Under the pieces are notes generated by a model. That model searched no databases. It had not been told where the DNA came from and saw nothing but the letters and a program-made list of their open reading frames with translations. The translations under genes and the position numbers were made by a program. This document shows, in pieces, positions 3,527 through 48,119 of a stretch of DNA of 48,119 nucleotides. Numbering within the stretch: position 1 is the first letter of the stretch; each line of letters starts with the position of its first letter. The stretch is from Candidatus Omnitrophota bacterium. GTDB taxonomy: Bacteria > Omnitrophota > Omnitrophia > Omnitrophales > Aquincolibacteriaceae. The stretch spans positions 1 through 48,119 of the forward strand of contig JAKLFP010000012.1 in assembly GCA_022711115.1 (NCBI GenBank), read 5' to 3'.

Positions 3527-4519
3527 ATGAGCGCTTCCCATTCTGACAGTTTGATACGGTTCGAAAGCATCTCCAAAAAATACGGAAATTTTCAAGCTCT
3601 CCAAAATGTTTCTTTTGAGATCCGAGAAGGCGAGATCGTGGGATTTCTCGGTCCGAATGGTGCCGGCAAAACGACCGCGTTGAGAATTCTAGCTGGTTTT
3701 TTTCCTCCTTCGAGTGGTCGAGTTTTTATCCGCGGCTTGGATCTTTTTAAATATCCTCACGAGGCAAAACGCGCCCTCGGGTATCTACCAGAGTCTGTCA
3801 ATCTTTATCCCGACATGAAGGTGGGTGAGTATCTCCGGTTTGTTGCAAAGCTTAAGGGAGTTCCTTCCCGCGAACAAAAACTCCATGTGCAGAACAAAAT
3901 GGAGCTTTGCGGTTTGACCGAGGTGGAGCGGCGCTTGATTGGCCGGCTTTCCAAGGGATATCGGCAGCGCGTGGGGATTGCGCAAGCGCTTATTTCAGAA
4001 CCTTCCGTGCTTGTGTTAGATGAACCGACGACCGGGCTTGACCCTCAACAGATCACGCAAATCCGCGAATTGATCCGGGCGATTGGGCATCACCGTGCCG
4101 TGATCCTGTCGACACATATTTTGCCGGAAGTTTCCATGCTCTGTAATCGTGTGCTGATGATTCACCAAGGGAAGATCCTGGCAAGCGGGACCGTGGGTGA
4201 GCTCGAAGCGTTTCTGAAAGACCGCGAGGTGATCCACATGATGATTAAAGAACGGGCGCATATGGAAATCGCGCTCCGTCTTTTGAGATCTTTTCCCGGC
4301 ATTGAGGATCTCAAGGCAACGGAAACTTCTAGAAAAGAGATCTCCATTTCTTTTGAAACGACGTGCGATGAAGATCTCAGATTGAAGATTTCAAAACTGC
4401 TGGTCGAAAACGACATTTCTCTGATTGAGATCCAGCGGGTTCCGTTGACATTGGAAGATATTTTCCTGGGCCTTCTCAAACAGGGGAAATTCGCGCAGCG
4501 GTCCGGAGGTCATGTATGA
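3527..4519 (+). CDS. ABC transporter ATP-binding protein (GldA-like)
   Basis: This is the ATPase subunit of an ABC-2 type system. Of its 330 residues, the Walker A motif GPNGAGKTT is at about 42-50. The signature LSKGYRQRVGIAQAL, the Walker B VLVLDEPTTGLDP and the switch STHILPEV follow in order. A C-terminal extension of about 100 residues is typical of this exporter subfamily. The start at 3527 begins the family-like MSASHSDSLIRFESISKKYG and avoids a long overlap with tyrS. Its stop overlaps the permease start by ATGA. Together with the next three genes it resembles the GldA-GldF-GldG set of Bacteroidetes, but the substrate cannot be read from sequence. Confidence 0.9.
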   Translation: MSASHSDSLIRFESISKKYGNFQALQNVSFEIREGEIVGFLGPNGAGKTTALRILAGFFPPSSGRVFIRGLDLFKYPHEAKRALGYLPESVNLYPDMKVGEYLRFVAKLKGVPSREQKLHVQNKMELCGLTEVERRLIGRLSKGYRQRVGIAQALISEPSVLVLDEPTTGLDPQQITQIRELIRAIGHHRAVILSTHILPEVSMLCNRVLMIHQGKILASGTVGELEAFLKDREVIHMMIKERAHMEIALRLLRSFPGIEDLKATETSRKEISISFETTCDEDLRLKISKLLVENDISLIEIQRVPLTLEDIFLGLLKQGKFAQRSGGHV

Positions 4520-18397: not shown

Positions 18398-19324
18398 ATG
18401 GTAAAAAAACGTTCTCAAGAGTTTATTGTCAAACCCGCGGAAGCAGGAAACCGTTTGGATGTTTATCTCGCCAAACAAATGGCGGCGCAGCATTCGCGTG
18501 CACATCTCCAAAAAATGATCAAAAACGGTGCCGTGCTTGTGAACGACCAAGGAACAACGCCTCACTATCCGGTTAAGGAAGGCGACAAGATCGATGTGGA
18601 AAAACTGGATGCGCCCGCGGAAGACCTCCCGGCTGAATCGATCCCGCTGGAAATTGTTTATGAAGACGACGATTGCCTTGTGGTGAATAAAGTTCCTGGG
18701 ATGGTTGTTCATCCGGCTCACGGAAATCCGAACCATACTCTCGTGAATGCGCTTCTCTTTTATGTGCAGAATCTTGGAAATTCCAAGGACAAAGTTCGGC
18801 CCGGGATTGTACACCGTCTTGATAAAGATACCTCCGGACTTTTGGTGGTTGCGAAAAATGATCGCGCGCATGCCAGGCTCGCCAAACAATTCAAAGACCA
18901 TACCATTGAGCGCGTTTATCATGCCATTGTTCGAGGTGTGGTGCAGCATGATGAAGGGGTTTGCGAAGAACCTGTCGGACGCGCTTTTCTAAACAGGAAA
19001 AAAGTGGTGGTTCGTCCTTCAGGGGGAAAGGATGCCATTACTTTTTTTCGTGTCCTGAAACGATTTCCGAAAGCAACGCTTGTTGAAATACGCCCGAAGA
19101 CCGGCCGCACACACCAGATCCGAGTACACTTTGCTCATATGGGTCATCCTGTCCTCGGAGACACCTTTTATGGGATTCCTTTTCCGCCCATTCAGCGTCA
19201 GGCACTTCATGCCTCTTCCATCGGTTTTGTGCATCCCAGCACTAAAAAGCATATTTTCTTGACGAGCGACCTTCCGGCGGATATGCAGGGTCTATTGAGG
19301 TTTCTTGAATCTTGTGACCATTAA
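18398..19324 (+). CDS. rluD: RluD-type 23S rRNA pseudouridine synthase
   Basis: The 308-residue protein has an N-terminal S4 RNA-binding domain (NRLDVYLAKQM and a following VLVND segment) and an RluA-family catalytic domain. The nucleophile motif is HRLDKDTSGLLVVAK; its Asp attacks the target uridine. RPKTGRTHQIRVHFAHMGHP is also present. The S4 plus RluA layout fits RluD, which modifies helix 69 of 23S rRNA, though RluC-like specificity cannot be excluded. ATG 18398 lies 9 bases after the lgt stop; the longer frame would overlap lgt. Confidence 0.9.
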   Translation: MVKKRSQEFIVKPAEAGNRLDVYLAKQMAAQHSRAHLQKMIKNGAVLVNDQGTTPHYPVKEGDKIDVEKLDAPAEDLPAESIPLEIVYEDDDCLVVNKVPGMVVHPAHGNPNHTLVNALLFYVQNLGNSKDKVRPGIVHRLDKDTSGLLVVAKNDRAHARLAKQFKDHTIERVYHAIVRGVVQHDEGVCEEPVGRAFLNRKKVVVRPSGGKDAITFFRVLKRFPKATLVEIRPKTGRTHQIRVHFAHMGHPVLGDTFYGIPFPPIQRQALHASSIGFVHPSTKKHIFLTSDLPADMQGLLRFLESCDH

Positions 19325-44491: not shown

Positions 44492-44520
44492 TTGGTTTCT
44501 AGGGGCAAGGTAATTATAAT
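44492..44520 (+). promoter_or_regulatory. rpoD promoter adjacent to the start codon
   Basis: TTGGTT (44492-44497), 17 bases and a perfect TATAAT (44515-44520) lie just before the rpoD ATG. The expected start near 44527 is only about four bases from ATG 44531. Confidence 0.7.
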
Positions 44521-44530
44521 ACCCAGTTCT

Positions 44531-46225
44531 ATGAAAAGACCTTCTTCAAAACCCACCAAAACTATGTCTAAAAAGCAACTCTTGAAGAGTAGCACCAAGA
44601 CGAAACCAGCCATGGACGTTACGGCTAAAGAGGGTAAGAAAATCGTAACGGCACCTAAAAAACAAAAAGAAATCATTACAAGTCTTCTGTCTTTGGGTAA
44701 AAAACAAGGATTTGTGACCATTGAGCAAATGAAGAAAAAACTTCCTGAGGACATGAATAATGCCGAGAAAGTCGAAGAAATCATAGGTGTTCTTACGGAA
44801 AAGGGAATTGAAGTTACGAGTCAAACCATGGGGGAGCAGGCCAAGCCATCAACGGAACCGATTCAGGATGTAGAGGCCAAAAAGACCAAGGATTCCGAGT
44901 TGGAAGAGGATGCAGCGATCGAAGAATACGAACGTGTCCGTATTGATGACCCGGTTCGAACCTATTTGCGTCAAATGGGACAAATCTCGCTTTTGACGCG
45001 GGAACAGGAAATTGAAATTTCCAAACGAATTGAAGCTTGTGAAGAAGATTTGAAAAGGGTTGTCTATCAGACCCAGGCAGCGCGTTTTGAGGTTCTGGAG
45101 CTTGCAAAAAAAATCACGGACGGACAAGTCCAGCTTGATGCCATTATTGATGAGGATCAAGAGGTGAAAATCCAGTTTATCAAGCGTAAGCTCAAATTGT
45201 TAATCCGTAAATTTCGTGCGTCACGGAAGAAAGCGAATGTGGTCGAGCTTTTGATCCAGTTTAATCTCAGCATCGGTATTGTTGAACAAATTATCGCGAA
45301 TCTTCGGGCTAAGCTTCGGGAATTAAAGAAAAACCGTGACGACATCAAAAAATTGCGTCGGCATGCGGTTCGCGGCCAAATCGGAAAAATCGAAGAGCGT
45401 AACCGACAGATTCTTTCCGAATTAGGTGAACCGGAAGAAAAGCTTTTGGAACATTTCAAAGCCATCGTTCGTAAGGAATGGGAACTTTCTAAAGCCAAGA
45501 AAGCTTTGGTGGCCGCCAATCTCCGCCTTGTGGTCAGTATTGCAAAAAAATATACAAATCGTGGGCTTTCTTTTTTGGATCTGATTCAGGAAGGGAACAT
45601 AGGCCTCATGAAGGCCGTTGATAAATTCGAATATAAACGAGGGTATAAATTTTCGACTTATGCAACTTGGTGGATCCGCCAAGCTATCACGCGATCCATC
45701 GCGGATCAGGCGCGTACCATCCGTATTCCCGTGCATATGATCGAAACGATCAATAAATTTTTCCGCGCTTCACGGCATCTAGTTCAGGAAACCGGTCGTG
45801 AGCCGACGCCGGAAGAAGTCGCCCAAGTCATGAGGATGCCGGTTGAGAAGGTAAAAGGGATTTTAAAAATTGCCCAGGAGCCGATCAGTCTTCAGACGCC
45901 GATTGGTGACGAAGGCGATACGAGCTTTGGGGATTTTATCGAAGATAAGTCCGCAGTTTCTCCTGCCAATGCCACCGCCTATAGCATGTTGAAAGAACAA
46001 ATGGATGATGTCCTGATGACGCTGACCGAGCGTGAGGAGAAAGTGCTGCGTTTGAGATTCGGTATCGGGGACGGTTATCCGCGCACTTTGGAAGAGGTGG
46101 GGCACATTTTTAATGTCACGCGTGAGCGTGTTCGTCAAATTGAGGCTAAAGCCTTAAGGAAATTACGCCATCCCACGCGTTCCAGAAAACTCAAGAATTT
46201 TCTGGATATTAAGCTTAGCGAGTAA
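44531..46225 (+). CDS. rpoD: RNA polymerase primary sigma factor
   Basis: The 564-residue sigma-70 protein has a lysine-rich start and a region 1.1-like domain ([18 protein letters not shown]). Region 1.2 ([18 protein letters not shown]) and a helical non-conserved insert of about 150 residues follow. Region 2 is intact ([52 protein letters not shown]), as are region 3 and region 4 ([20 protein letters not shown]). It is a group 1 factor. ATG 44531 is the first start after the promoter; ATG 44564 ([10 protein letters not shown]) is an alternative. Neither has a Shine-Dalgarno site. Confidence 0.95.
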
Positions 46226-46302: not shown

Positions 46303-46707
46303 ATGGCCGAAAACAAAAAGTGCATTCTTATCATTGATGATGAGGATGATGTTTGTCAGATAGTTAAAGAGAAATTTGAACATAGCGGCTACCAAGTCTT
46401 GATGGCCAATGATGGTGCCGAAGGTTTCAAAAAGACAGAAGAAGGGAAACCTGATTGTGTGCTTCTTGATATACGAATACCCAAAGGGGAAGATGGACTG
46501 ACATATCTTCGGAAATTACGTTCTTACCGCAATGATGATCTTCAAGAGCAAGCGCGCATGCGAAAGACGCCTGTGATCATGCTGACGGGGGCTGGCGCGA
46601 CCATGCAGCCTCTTTTTGAGCTCGAGCAAATCAGTGGTTTCATCGAGAAACCTTTTGATTTGGCTAACCTTCAAAGTAAAGTTGAGCACGTTCTCAAGAT
46701 TCGCTAG
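46303..46707 (+). CDS. Stand-alone response regulator receiver
   Basis: The 134-residue protein is a receiver domain with the acidic pocket in IIDDEDDV, the phospho-acceptor Asp in VLLDIRIPKGEDG, the switch Thr in MLTGAG and the Lys in EKPFDL. The loop around RSYRNDDLQEQARMRKTP is longer than usual. No output domain and no kinase are adjacent, so the partner is unknown. The ATG follows TATAAA and a GAGG-containing ribosome site. It is the last normal gene before the sparse region. Confidence 0.9.
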   Translation: MAENKKCILIIDDEDDVCQIVKEKFEHSGYQVLMANDGAEGFKKTEEGKPDCVLLDIRIPKGEDGLTYLRKLRSYRNDDLQEQARMRKTPVIMLTGAGATMQPLFELEQISGFIEKPFDLANLQSKVEHVLKIR

Positions 46708-47041
46708 CACCGTTTCATTTTAATATGCATGGGTACACGGTATCGTCATAGAAGCATTTTTAATTTGTGTCCTTCAATGCTAGTCAAGTCATCCCAGTAG
46801 AGTCGATTGTCCATTGCAATTCTCTTCCTGATTCGCTATTCTAATCCGCAAAACAAGAGCATCAAGTGGCTGTTGGTTTTCAGTTTTTAATTCATTATAA
46901 AAGTTAAAATGATTCGAGTTGGCAATAGTCAGGTTTAGATCCTCGCCGCCAACGTCCCAAAATGCCGACGAGGAAGGTTAAAGCATATCTTTCTATGGCG
47001 GGCCGTCCGAAAGGACTGGATCCCTAGAAAACAACAATTTT
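46708..47041. other. Gene-free stretch with candidate structured RNA
   Basis: There is no supported coding sequence across these 334 bases. Near its end lie a TCCTCG/CGAGGA stem (46940-46945 with 46969-46974) and a hairpin at 47000-47024 capped by GAAA (GTCC-GAAA-GGAC with flanking CC/GG and GGG/CCC). CCGCC (46946-46950) could pair with GGCGG (46997-47001), suggesting a multibranch RNA. I recognise no known family. Confidence 0.35.
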
Positions 47042-47085
47042 GGGCCCGTAGCTCAGTCGGTTAGAGCAGGCGACTCATAATCGCT
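47042..47085 (+). pseudogene. Truncated tRNA-Met (anticodon CAU), 5' half only
   Basis: The acceptor strand GGGCCCG, D-arm GCTC...GAGC and a full anticodon arm (GGCGA, loop CTCATAA, TCGCT) match an elongator-type tRNA-Met; the anticodon CAT is at 47076-47078. After base 47085 the variable loop, T-arm and the acceptor return strand CGGGCCC are all absent, so the product cannot fold as a tRNA. An Ile2-type CAU tRNA is possible but less likely. The break lies just after the anticodon stem, a place used by some integrases. Confidence 0.8.
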
Positions 47086-47408
47086 CAGGAAAATTTTCGC
47101 AACCCTTTGAGATTCATCATAATCCTTTTTTCCTCCAAAACTTAGCTCTCTTCTTCCTTTTGCTCCACTCTGCCCGTTTAGACCCTGAAAACCTTTCGCT
47201 AAGGGAACAATATGGGAACAGGGGGGTGTCTCTCGCCATACACACTTTACCCCACCCCCGGGTATCACAGTTATTCCTCGCATTGATAATTCAGCCAATT
47301 TTTGAAACCTGATAGCTTCTGCATAAACTTGCTATATCAATGTCCTAGTATGTCCTAGGCTGTCCTATTGAAGTATGCTCGACTATCCTTTAAGCTTTAA
47401 TCCTCCTT
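47086..47408. other. Intergenic junction region with short repeats
   Basis: I see no convincing gene in these 323 bases. The sequence is AT-richer than the core genes. TCATAATC from the tRNA anticodon loop recurs at 47117-47124, and GGGAACA occurs twice at an 11-base period (47203-47209 and 47214-47220). A minus-strand frame at 47053-47298 runs into the tRNA fragment and is probably not a gene. Confidence 0.5.
47341..47368 (+). repeat. Three TGTCCTA iterons at exact 10-base spacing
   Basis: TGTCCTAG, TGTCCTAG and TGTCCTAT begin at 47341, 47351 and 47361, one helical turn apart. They lie 41 bases before the PEP-CTERM gene, so a regulator operator is plausible. Confidence 0.65.
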
Positions 47409-48023
47409 ATGAAGATAAAAATTTTAGTTCTTATTTTGTTGCTCCTTCCGTTCCTCACTCCCAACGCTCATGCTGTAGTATTTGAATGGTCAATCGCAGA
47501 TGGTGGAAATGGGCATTTTTATGAAAGGAACGATACAAATTTATCTTGGCATGATGCTGAAACTTATGCTGAAGGATTAGGGGGCTATCTTGGAACTATT
47601 ACTTCTCAAGCTGAGCAAAATTTCGTTTGGAGCAATTTAGGACTCAACGAAGAATTTATTTGGCTCGGAGGAACAGATGAAGTTCTGGAAGGAACTTGGA
47701 AGTGGGTCACAGGCGAAACCTTTTGGATTGGAGGAATCGACGGATATTCAGTTGGTGGTGCTTATAACAACTGGGGGAAAAATGGATTGATTCAATCTGA
47801 GCCTGACAATATTGGACAAGGTCAAGATTATCTCGTATTTTTTCCAGGTGGTCTTGGTGGGCATAATGGCGAATGGGATGATTATGGACTTCCCGATTAC
47901 AATCACCTCAAGCCATCAATTATTGAATATAACTCTTCGCCTACAGCCATTCCCGAACCCTCAACAATCCTGCTGATGCTTTCTGGACTACTGGGCTTAC
48001 CATTTGTGAGGAGGAAAAAGTGA
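47409..48023 (+). CDS. PEP-CTERM secreted protein with C-type lectin-like domain
   Basis: The 204-residue protein has a signal peptide (residues 1-22, ending NAHA). A C-type lectin-like domain follows (WHDAETYAEGLGGYLGTITS, IWLGGTDEVLEGTWKWVTGE, NNWGKNG and GEWDDYG). The C-terminal sorting signal is PEPSTILLMLSGLLG plus a basic FVRRKK tail. PEP-CTERM proteins are cut and anchored by an exosortase; none is in the window. The next gene starts over its stop by GTGA. The upstream 10-base repeats may regulate it. Confidence 0.88.
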   Translation: MKIKILVLILLLLPFLTPNAHAVVFEWSIADGGNGHFYERNDTNLSWHDAETYAEGLGGYLGTITSQAEQNFVWSNLGLNEEFIWLGGTDEVLEGTWKWVTGETFWIGGIDGYSVGGAYNNWGKNGLIQSEPDNIGQGQDYLVFFPGGLGGHNGEWDDYGLPDYNHLKPSIIEYNSSPTAIPEPSTILLMLSGLLGLPFVRRKK

Positions 48024-48119
48024 AAAAGCTATTACTCACCGCTCTCTTGCTGCTTCTATTTGCCACTCCCGCTCATGCCATTACCATGTTTGGCTATGAT
48101 TTTGAGGATACTGCTTTTA
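48020..48119 (+). CDS. Secreted protein (3' partial)
   Basis: The frame opens at GTG 48020, overlapping the previous stop by GTGA, and runs off the window end. The visible 33 residues are a signal peptide (KKLLLTALLLLLFATPAHA) followed by ITMFGYDFEDTAF. A GGAGGAAAAA ribosome site precedes the GTG. The mature start resembles LamG/concanavalin-type or PEP-CTERM exoproteins, but too little is present to assign. Co-transcription with the lectin-like gene is likely. Confidence 0.6.
   Translation, partial: MKKLLLTALLLLLFATPAHAITMFGYDFEDTAF

Follow-up and report, generated by a model that had tools for sequence, protein, structure and literature searches.

What cuts a tRNA gene off in the middle of its sequence? 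The question is raised by a 48,119-nt stretch of DNA from a Candidatus Omnitrophota bacterium (contig JAKLFP010000012.1 of assembly GCA_022711115.1, hereafter the window), which is the entire contig C4 of a genome assembled in 25 contigs and 2.5 Mb. Near its right end, a tRNA(CAU) gene begins with G1 at position 47042 and carries the anticodon CAT at 47076–47078, and all similarity to a tRNA ends after 47085, i.e., the fragment covers the D arm and the anticodon arm and is cut directly 3' of the anticodon stem, just as a first-pass annotation made from the sequence alone had described. Neither an ARAGORN scan of the whole window, which called no tRNA, nor an Rfam scan of the same DNA, which matched no family, registered the fragment. 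The first-pass annotation had left the choice between an integrative-element boundary, a rearrangement scar, and an assembly break, and the first of these was borne out: positions 47042–47085 (+ strand, as for all window features below) are very probably the left attachment site (attL) of a small integrative element that was inserted into tRNA(CAU) by tyrosine-integrase recombination within the 5' half of the gene.

Contig C6 holds the opposite boundary. The 46 bp at 47040–47085 were found exactly once elsewhere in the genome, at the start of an intact tRNA(CAU) on this contig, which ARAGORN classifies as tRNA-Met (we take its anticodon arm to resemble that of E. coli tRNA-Ile2(CAU) as well, and leave the isotype open). 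A 368-codon gene runs in the same direction as this intact tRNA and stops 9 nt before it, and its product is a tyrosine integrase (PF00589, 2.5e-33; phrog_1, 1.1e-75). The missing tRNA 3' half and an integrase, both of which had been expected just past the end of the window, thus exist, although on a different contig. The C6 tRNA is followed on its 3' side by genes for a BBP2 porin (Pfam-checked) and then, with names assigned by eye, a TPR-like lipoprotein, PyrR, and PyrB. On the window side, the final chromosomal gene 5' of the tRNA half encodes a response regulator (46303–46707, identified from its open reading frame and from relatives), and the chromosomal left flank includes the open reading frame of an RpoD-like sigma factor (44492–46225), the orthologue of which adjoins the response regulator in relatives.

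This gene order was compared with 12 regions around the response regulator in related genomes, and an intact tRNA-Met was detected downstream of the response regulator in 8 of them. Seven of these regions run on into TPR, PyrR, and PyrB, and the eighth (G023) is a 4.3 kb contig. The order RpoD, response regulator, tRNA, BBP2, TPR, PyrR, PyrB is uninterrupted in G011, G015, and G034, and the same order without BBP2 was found in G012, G018, G019, and G021, with ~4 kb of other sequence between response regulator and tRNA in G021 and other genes between tRNA and TPR in G019. The remaining four regions include one with the tRNA 5' half only (G020) and three in which no tRNA-Met was found in the region (G007, G024, and G025). 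Here, the ancestral gene order is divided between C4 on the left and C6 on the right, and the empty site in relatives therefore identifies these two contigs as the flanks of one ancestral locus, with the insertion in the tRNA between them. A full-length tRNA without an insert in a relative had been proposed as grounds for dismissing an element; such copies do exist, yet they are exactly what integration predicts, so that this test was inverted. The half tRNA of G020, at the same locus and with no insert evident, would also be compatible with simple decay, i.e., a tRNA pseudogene that lost its 3' half with no element involved. For the window, however, the 3' half and the downstream gene order survive elsewhere in the same genome, behind the integrase on C6, and we regard decay as highly improbable. 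At the orthologous G020 site itself (C15:25291–25330; L016, L213), the sequence that follows the tRNA half resembles that of the element-free G023, and no intact tRNA-Met was found in this metagenome-assembled genome. In G026, a stretch of C8 shortly 5' of the tRNA-Met (L209) resembles by eye a coding part of the integrase (FETALK..GI), and is possibly the remnant of a lost element that now lies near the tRNA promoter.

The same layout occurs a second time in this genome. Parts of the left end of the element in the window (47086–48119, cut by the contig end) are 95–96% identical to C3:62172–63082, and directly 5' of this shared sequence C3 carries the 5' half of a tRNA-Pro(UGG), also cut after the anticodon stem. 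An intact tRNA-Pro(UGG) is located on C8, where another integrase gene stops 6–7 nt 5' of it, and the C3 half matches the intact C8 copy over 45 bp at 98%. Because of this second element and of a flank synteny that fits simple insertion, neither a rearrangement scar nor a break at 47085 is supported, and the true assembly break is at 48119, inside element sequence common to C4 and C3. One might still suspect that the tRNA half is a chimeric assembler joint, given a fragmented assembly and a window that stops 1 kb past the joint, but the layout is repeated independently in tRNA-Pro here, on single contigs in tRNA-Ser, tRNA-Cys, and tRNA-Thr elsewhere, and on a phage contig, which makes such an artefact scarcely credible. 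Taken together, the window element would measure ~6.4 kb, with 1.03 kb on C4, ~0.68 kb known only from C3, and ~4.7 kb on C6.

We then considered the DNA on both sides of the putative crossover region. Five elements could be followed at both ends, and each has a tandem repeat of its own that is present in the attL arm and again at the 3' end of its integrase gene: GGGAACA for tRNA(CAU), GGCACAA for tRNA-Pro, TGGACAC for tRNA-Ser, TTATCACA for tRNA-Cys, and TTGGCACC for tRNA-Thr. The copy in the window, GGGAACAATATGGGAACA at 47203–47220, is a putative integrase arm-type site, and a near-identical copy lies inside the 3' end of the C6 integrase gene. The best 20-mer matches between arm repeats scored 17–19 within the same element vs. 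a mean of 13.6 and a maximum of 15 across elements, and none of the 20 cross-element comparisons reached the lowest same-element value. These repeats are positioned 156–179 nt from the start of the attL half and 73–107 nt 5' of the tRNA at the right attachment site (attR). With such a repeat to either side of the core, these elements offer testable integrase recognition sites in lineages without cultured genetics.

The attachment site expected on the free element (attP) was searched for in 80 integrase relatives from viral contigs, fetched by alignment search; when the C6 integrase was used alone as a protein query against viral contigs, no relative was found. At the first 20 of these loci, the surroundings of the integrase stop were checked for both a tRNA and a D-arm-like motif; the remaining 60 were checked for the motif alone. 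The motif was detected near the integrase stop in 2 of the 80 relatives (L221 and L232). On the phage contig L221, which also encodes a terminase large subunit and a primase, the integrase is followed by a 38 nt tRNA(CAU) 5' half and then by a non-tRNA left arm, with the repeat GGTGACACAGTGGTGACAT at −96 and +155. A junction of this type would arise at the attP of a free element and equally where two tandem copies meet, and the two cases are indistinguishable here. In L232, the integrase stop falls by eye within the anticodon loop of a tRNA-Arg(CCT)-like 5' half.

We propose that attP consists of a duplicate 5' tRNA half flanked on either side by an arm-repeat site, with one of these sites falling within the 3' end of the integrase gene, and that the crossover takes place within the tRNA 5' half, most likely in or near the anticodon loop, as suggested by where the fragments of other members end. 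Integration would leave the original promoter and 5' half in the window as a dead fragment, and the 5'-half copy of the element, directly behind the integrase, would join the chromosomal 3' half to yield the intact tRNA on C6. The rebuilt tRNA would then probably be transcribed from the integrase promoter. Consistent with this, a pattern scan identified a promoter-like TTGAAT-17-TATAAT 27 bp 5' of the C6 integrase ATG, and found no promoter on the same strand between the integrase start and the rebuilt tRNA, although such a scan is weak evidence. C4, the element, and C6 would form one physical unit, and this element may also be mobile at present.

Next, complete relatives of the element were sought in 47 genomes of the order, in which 26 integrases matched at a threshold of 1e-30, distributed across 15 genomes. 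In 14 of the 26, the integrase gene stops close to a same-strand tRNA, from 20 nt within the tRNA to 40 nt short of it, and 2 more abut by eye a tRNA-Arg(UCU)-like sequence missed by ARAGORN. Longer stretches were examined for 14 of the 26 loci, and in 3 of these the displaced 5' half was found on the same contig as the integrase: a tRNA-Ser half 9.4 kb upstream (39 nt, exact), a tRNA-Cys half 13.6 kb upstream (41 nt, exact), and a tRNA-Thr half 6.0 kb upstream, a copy with an interrupted D arm. Contig ends limited the view at many of the other loci. In G007 and G013, the C-terminal residues of the tRNA-Cys integrase are GAVAKW, a sequence encoded by the tRNA-Cys 5' half itself. Several loci of this set displayed additional peculiarities. 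On G007 C74, two intact tRNA-Ser genes lie 14.7 kb apart (L108, reverse strand 3900–3986 and 18597–18685), together with an 18-nt fragment and with an integrase before the second tRNA-Ser; the pair is possibly a tandem or repaired copy. Short, GC-rich, and partly palindromic inserts in the D arm were noted in displaced or extra 5' tRNA fragments (L104 12593–12660, L110 9081–9101, and L108 3528–3545), and perhaps represent a small repeat family landing in dead tRNA halves. A third integrase of the window genome, on C10, abuts a tRNA-Arg(UCU)-like sequence. Such an arrangement was noted at G000 C10 1–60 and the end of C25 (L074 and L079) and at G018 C3 (L090), and the tRNA-like sequence, which has an unusual D arm in both genomes, is either a decayed or an odd tRNA. 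Since no attL fragment was found for the C10 integrase in this genome, its locus is not counted as a proven element.

We also surveyed the integrase family, using the best 80 of 470 integrase relatives with one genome per species, of which 78 loci were evaluable; within this sample, the closest relatives were mostly found in Candidatus Omnitrophota. A same-strand tRNA with its 5' end at the integrase end was detected at 50 of the 78 loci, and a convergent tRNA with its 3' end at the integrase end at 18. The 27 loci assigned to Omnitrophota by record title comprised 23 same-strand, 0 convergent, and 4 without a tRNA. Every displaced tRNA fragment had the expected polarity: at same-strand loci, 6/6 were 5' fragments reaching nucleotide 38–42 (one in two pieces), and at the 5 of 18 convergent loci with a fragment, 5/5 were 3' fragments running from nucleotide 28–33 to the end, so that fragments of the two polarities overlap within the anticodon arm. 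The target tRNAs covered 11 amino-acid identities. With the host tRNA directly behind the integrase, the integrase reading frame enters the tRNA at 21 of the 50 same-strand loci, which would couple an essential host gene to a mobile-element promoter. At 12 of the 50, the frame extends beyond the anticodon, and integration would therefore alter the C-terminus of the integrase.

A quick tree was built from 79 integrases, of which 68 carried a polarity label, after removing 6 short sequences and adding 5 others; on it, polarity changed 5 times vs. 15.3 times with shuffled labels, and 0 of 500 shuffles were as low, although this switch count is rough because 30 of the 76 inner branches are weak. 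A mainly Omnitrophota clade of 27 sequences (support 93) included 23 labelled members, all of them same-strand. One tentative reading, which we consider possible rather than established, is that Omnitrophota and related uncultured bacteria host an integrase family with an uncommon polarity as its rule, whose members displace tRNA promoters and 5' halves, such that many essential tRNAs may use integrase promoters, and which has switched several times between 5' and 3' halves because the symmetric anticodon stem-loop allows both.

Several observations weigh against an element inserted in the tRNA(CAU) 5' half. In the survey, the integrase end lacked a tRNA at 10 of the 78 loci, and a displaced fragment was found at only 6 of the 50 same-strand loci; by hand count, upstream DNA extended for 7.7 kb or more at ~16 of these 50. 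The first-pass annotation had reported that both composition and gene content change at the boundary; gene content does, from the response regulator to a C-type lectin/PEP-CTERM gene, but the GC content shows no shift, at 0.41–0.45 in 400-base windows from 46400 to 47999. The element is also not spanned by any single contig in this genome, and the C3 end (tRNA-Pro attL) and the C6 end (tRNA(CAU) attR) overlap by exactly 127 bp, so that the assembly graph cannot pair left with right ends. This overlap, together with the 95–96% identity of the C3 and C4 left ends, could point to recombination between the two resident elements, in which C3 would continue into C6 and C4 into C8, and the half tRNA of the window would be a translocation or inversion junction. 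An exact overlap of fixed length is, however, typical of k-mer assembly at a branch point common to two sequences, and is expected wherever two elements share sequence. Moreover, the tRNA identities match C4 to C6 and C3 to C8, and gene order also links C4 to C6. We thus consider this recombination unlikely, and even if it had occurred, position 47085 would still be an element boundary.

Insertion into the tRNA 5' half is a known but uncommon version of the common tRNA-insertion mode, as described in the Islander and archaeal recombinase literature. The account of tRNA islands in Islander gives a 5' tDNA fragment for 159 of 3919 islands, with an intact tRNA, an upstream 5' fragment in the same orientation, an integrase between them, and an anticodon-centred site (PMC4383910). 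The window element has a corresponding anatomy, with a 46 bp identical 5' fragment in the same orientation, an integrase before the intact tRNA (C4 and C6 being separate contigs), and an empty site in relatives. Elements of this type are single units of 2–200 kb; the window element would measure ~6.4 kb across its contig gap, and it is in relatives that whole units were seen on single contigs. Whereas 5' fragments are a small minority in the Islander figures, for the Omnitrophota integrases of a single family theirs is the sole polarity seen here. The remark in the first-pass annotation that most element boundaries rebuild the tRNA 3' half is correct. Canonical islands with 3' fragments share with the window element the integrase family, the anticodon-loop zone, and the integrase 3' end beside the tRNA (18 of the 78 survey loci), but differ in that the tRNA faces the integrase and the 3' half is displaced. 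Among archaea, pTN3-like integrases are described as using the tRNA 5' half, and the integrase promoter is said to drive the rebuilt tRNA (PMC8371274 and PMC5495485); a passage of the archaeal recombinase review, citing Williams 2002, presents 5'-half use as seldom met in bacteria (PMC8371274). As in the descriptions of pTN3, integration cuts the rebuilt tRNA off from its native promoter (PMC8371274 and PMC5495485); unlike this archaeal plasmid, the integrase gene of which is disrupted by integration, the window element has an integrase gene that ends ahead of the tRNA and is not split. Our literature searches found no paper on 5'-half islands in Omnitrophota, which is no proof of absence. What is new here is this pair of elements with the anatomy of its attP, together with a family of bacterial integrases that mostly show the 5'-half polarity. 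Elements that displace a 5' half are easily mistaken for pseudogenes or assembly errors, because readers expect a displaced 3' fragment.

A minor feature of the left boundary is the anticodon-loop 8-mer TCATAATC at 47075–47082, which recurs at 47117–47124 as the first-pass annotation had noticed. Its recurrence within the next 100 nt has a chance of 0.002 in a mononucleotide shuffle, compared to 0.037 for any 8-mer of the tRNA half, and it occurs 3 times in the window with both strands counted. As a functional att feature it was rejected: inspection by eye of the other four attL arms revealed nothing comparable, and the downstream copy is therefore probably incidental.

Finally, we examined the genes of these elements. 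The left end in the window encodes a secreted C-type lectin domain protein with a PEP-CTERM signal (47409–48023, open reading frame and family search) as cargo, followed by the start of a second gene (48020–48119) that is cut by the contig end and has a PEP-CTERM motif in its C3 copy. Besides the integrase, the C6 portion encodes a DnaB-like helicase and a replication-initiation protein (both strong matches), a DUF5659 protein, and a TerS-like protein (weak match to phrog_51, 4e-8, over 65 aa), and a HTH_17/excisionase-like protein is encoded beside the integrase on C8. No capsid family was found among the element proteins scanned. Phage-inducible chromosomal islands (PICIs) are characterized by small size, an integrase, an excisionase, replication genes, and TerS. 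The two elements of this genome (C4/C6 and C3/C8) partly resemble PICIs, being small and carrying integrases, with replication genes on C6 and an excisionase-like helix-turn-helix protein recognised on C8, and differ from PICIs in the weak TerS-like match over 65 aa and in their PEP-CTERM and lectin cargo. Related elements carry AbiEi/AbiEii, Fic, DUF6088, a 3212-aa RHS protein, AIPR, or a carbamoyltransferase.
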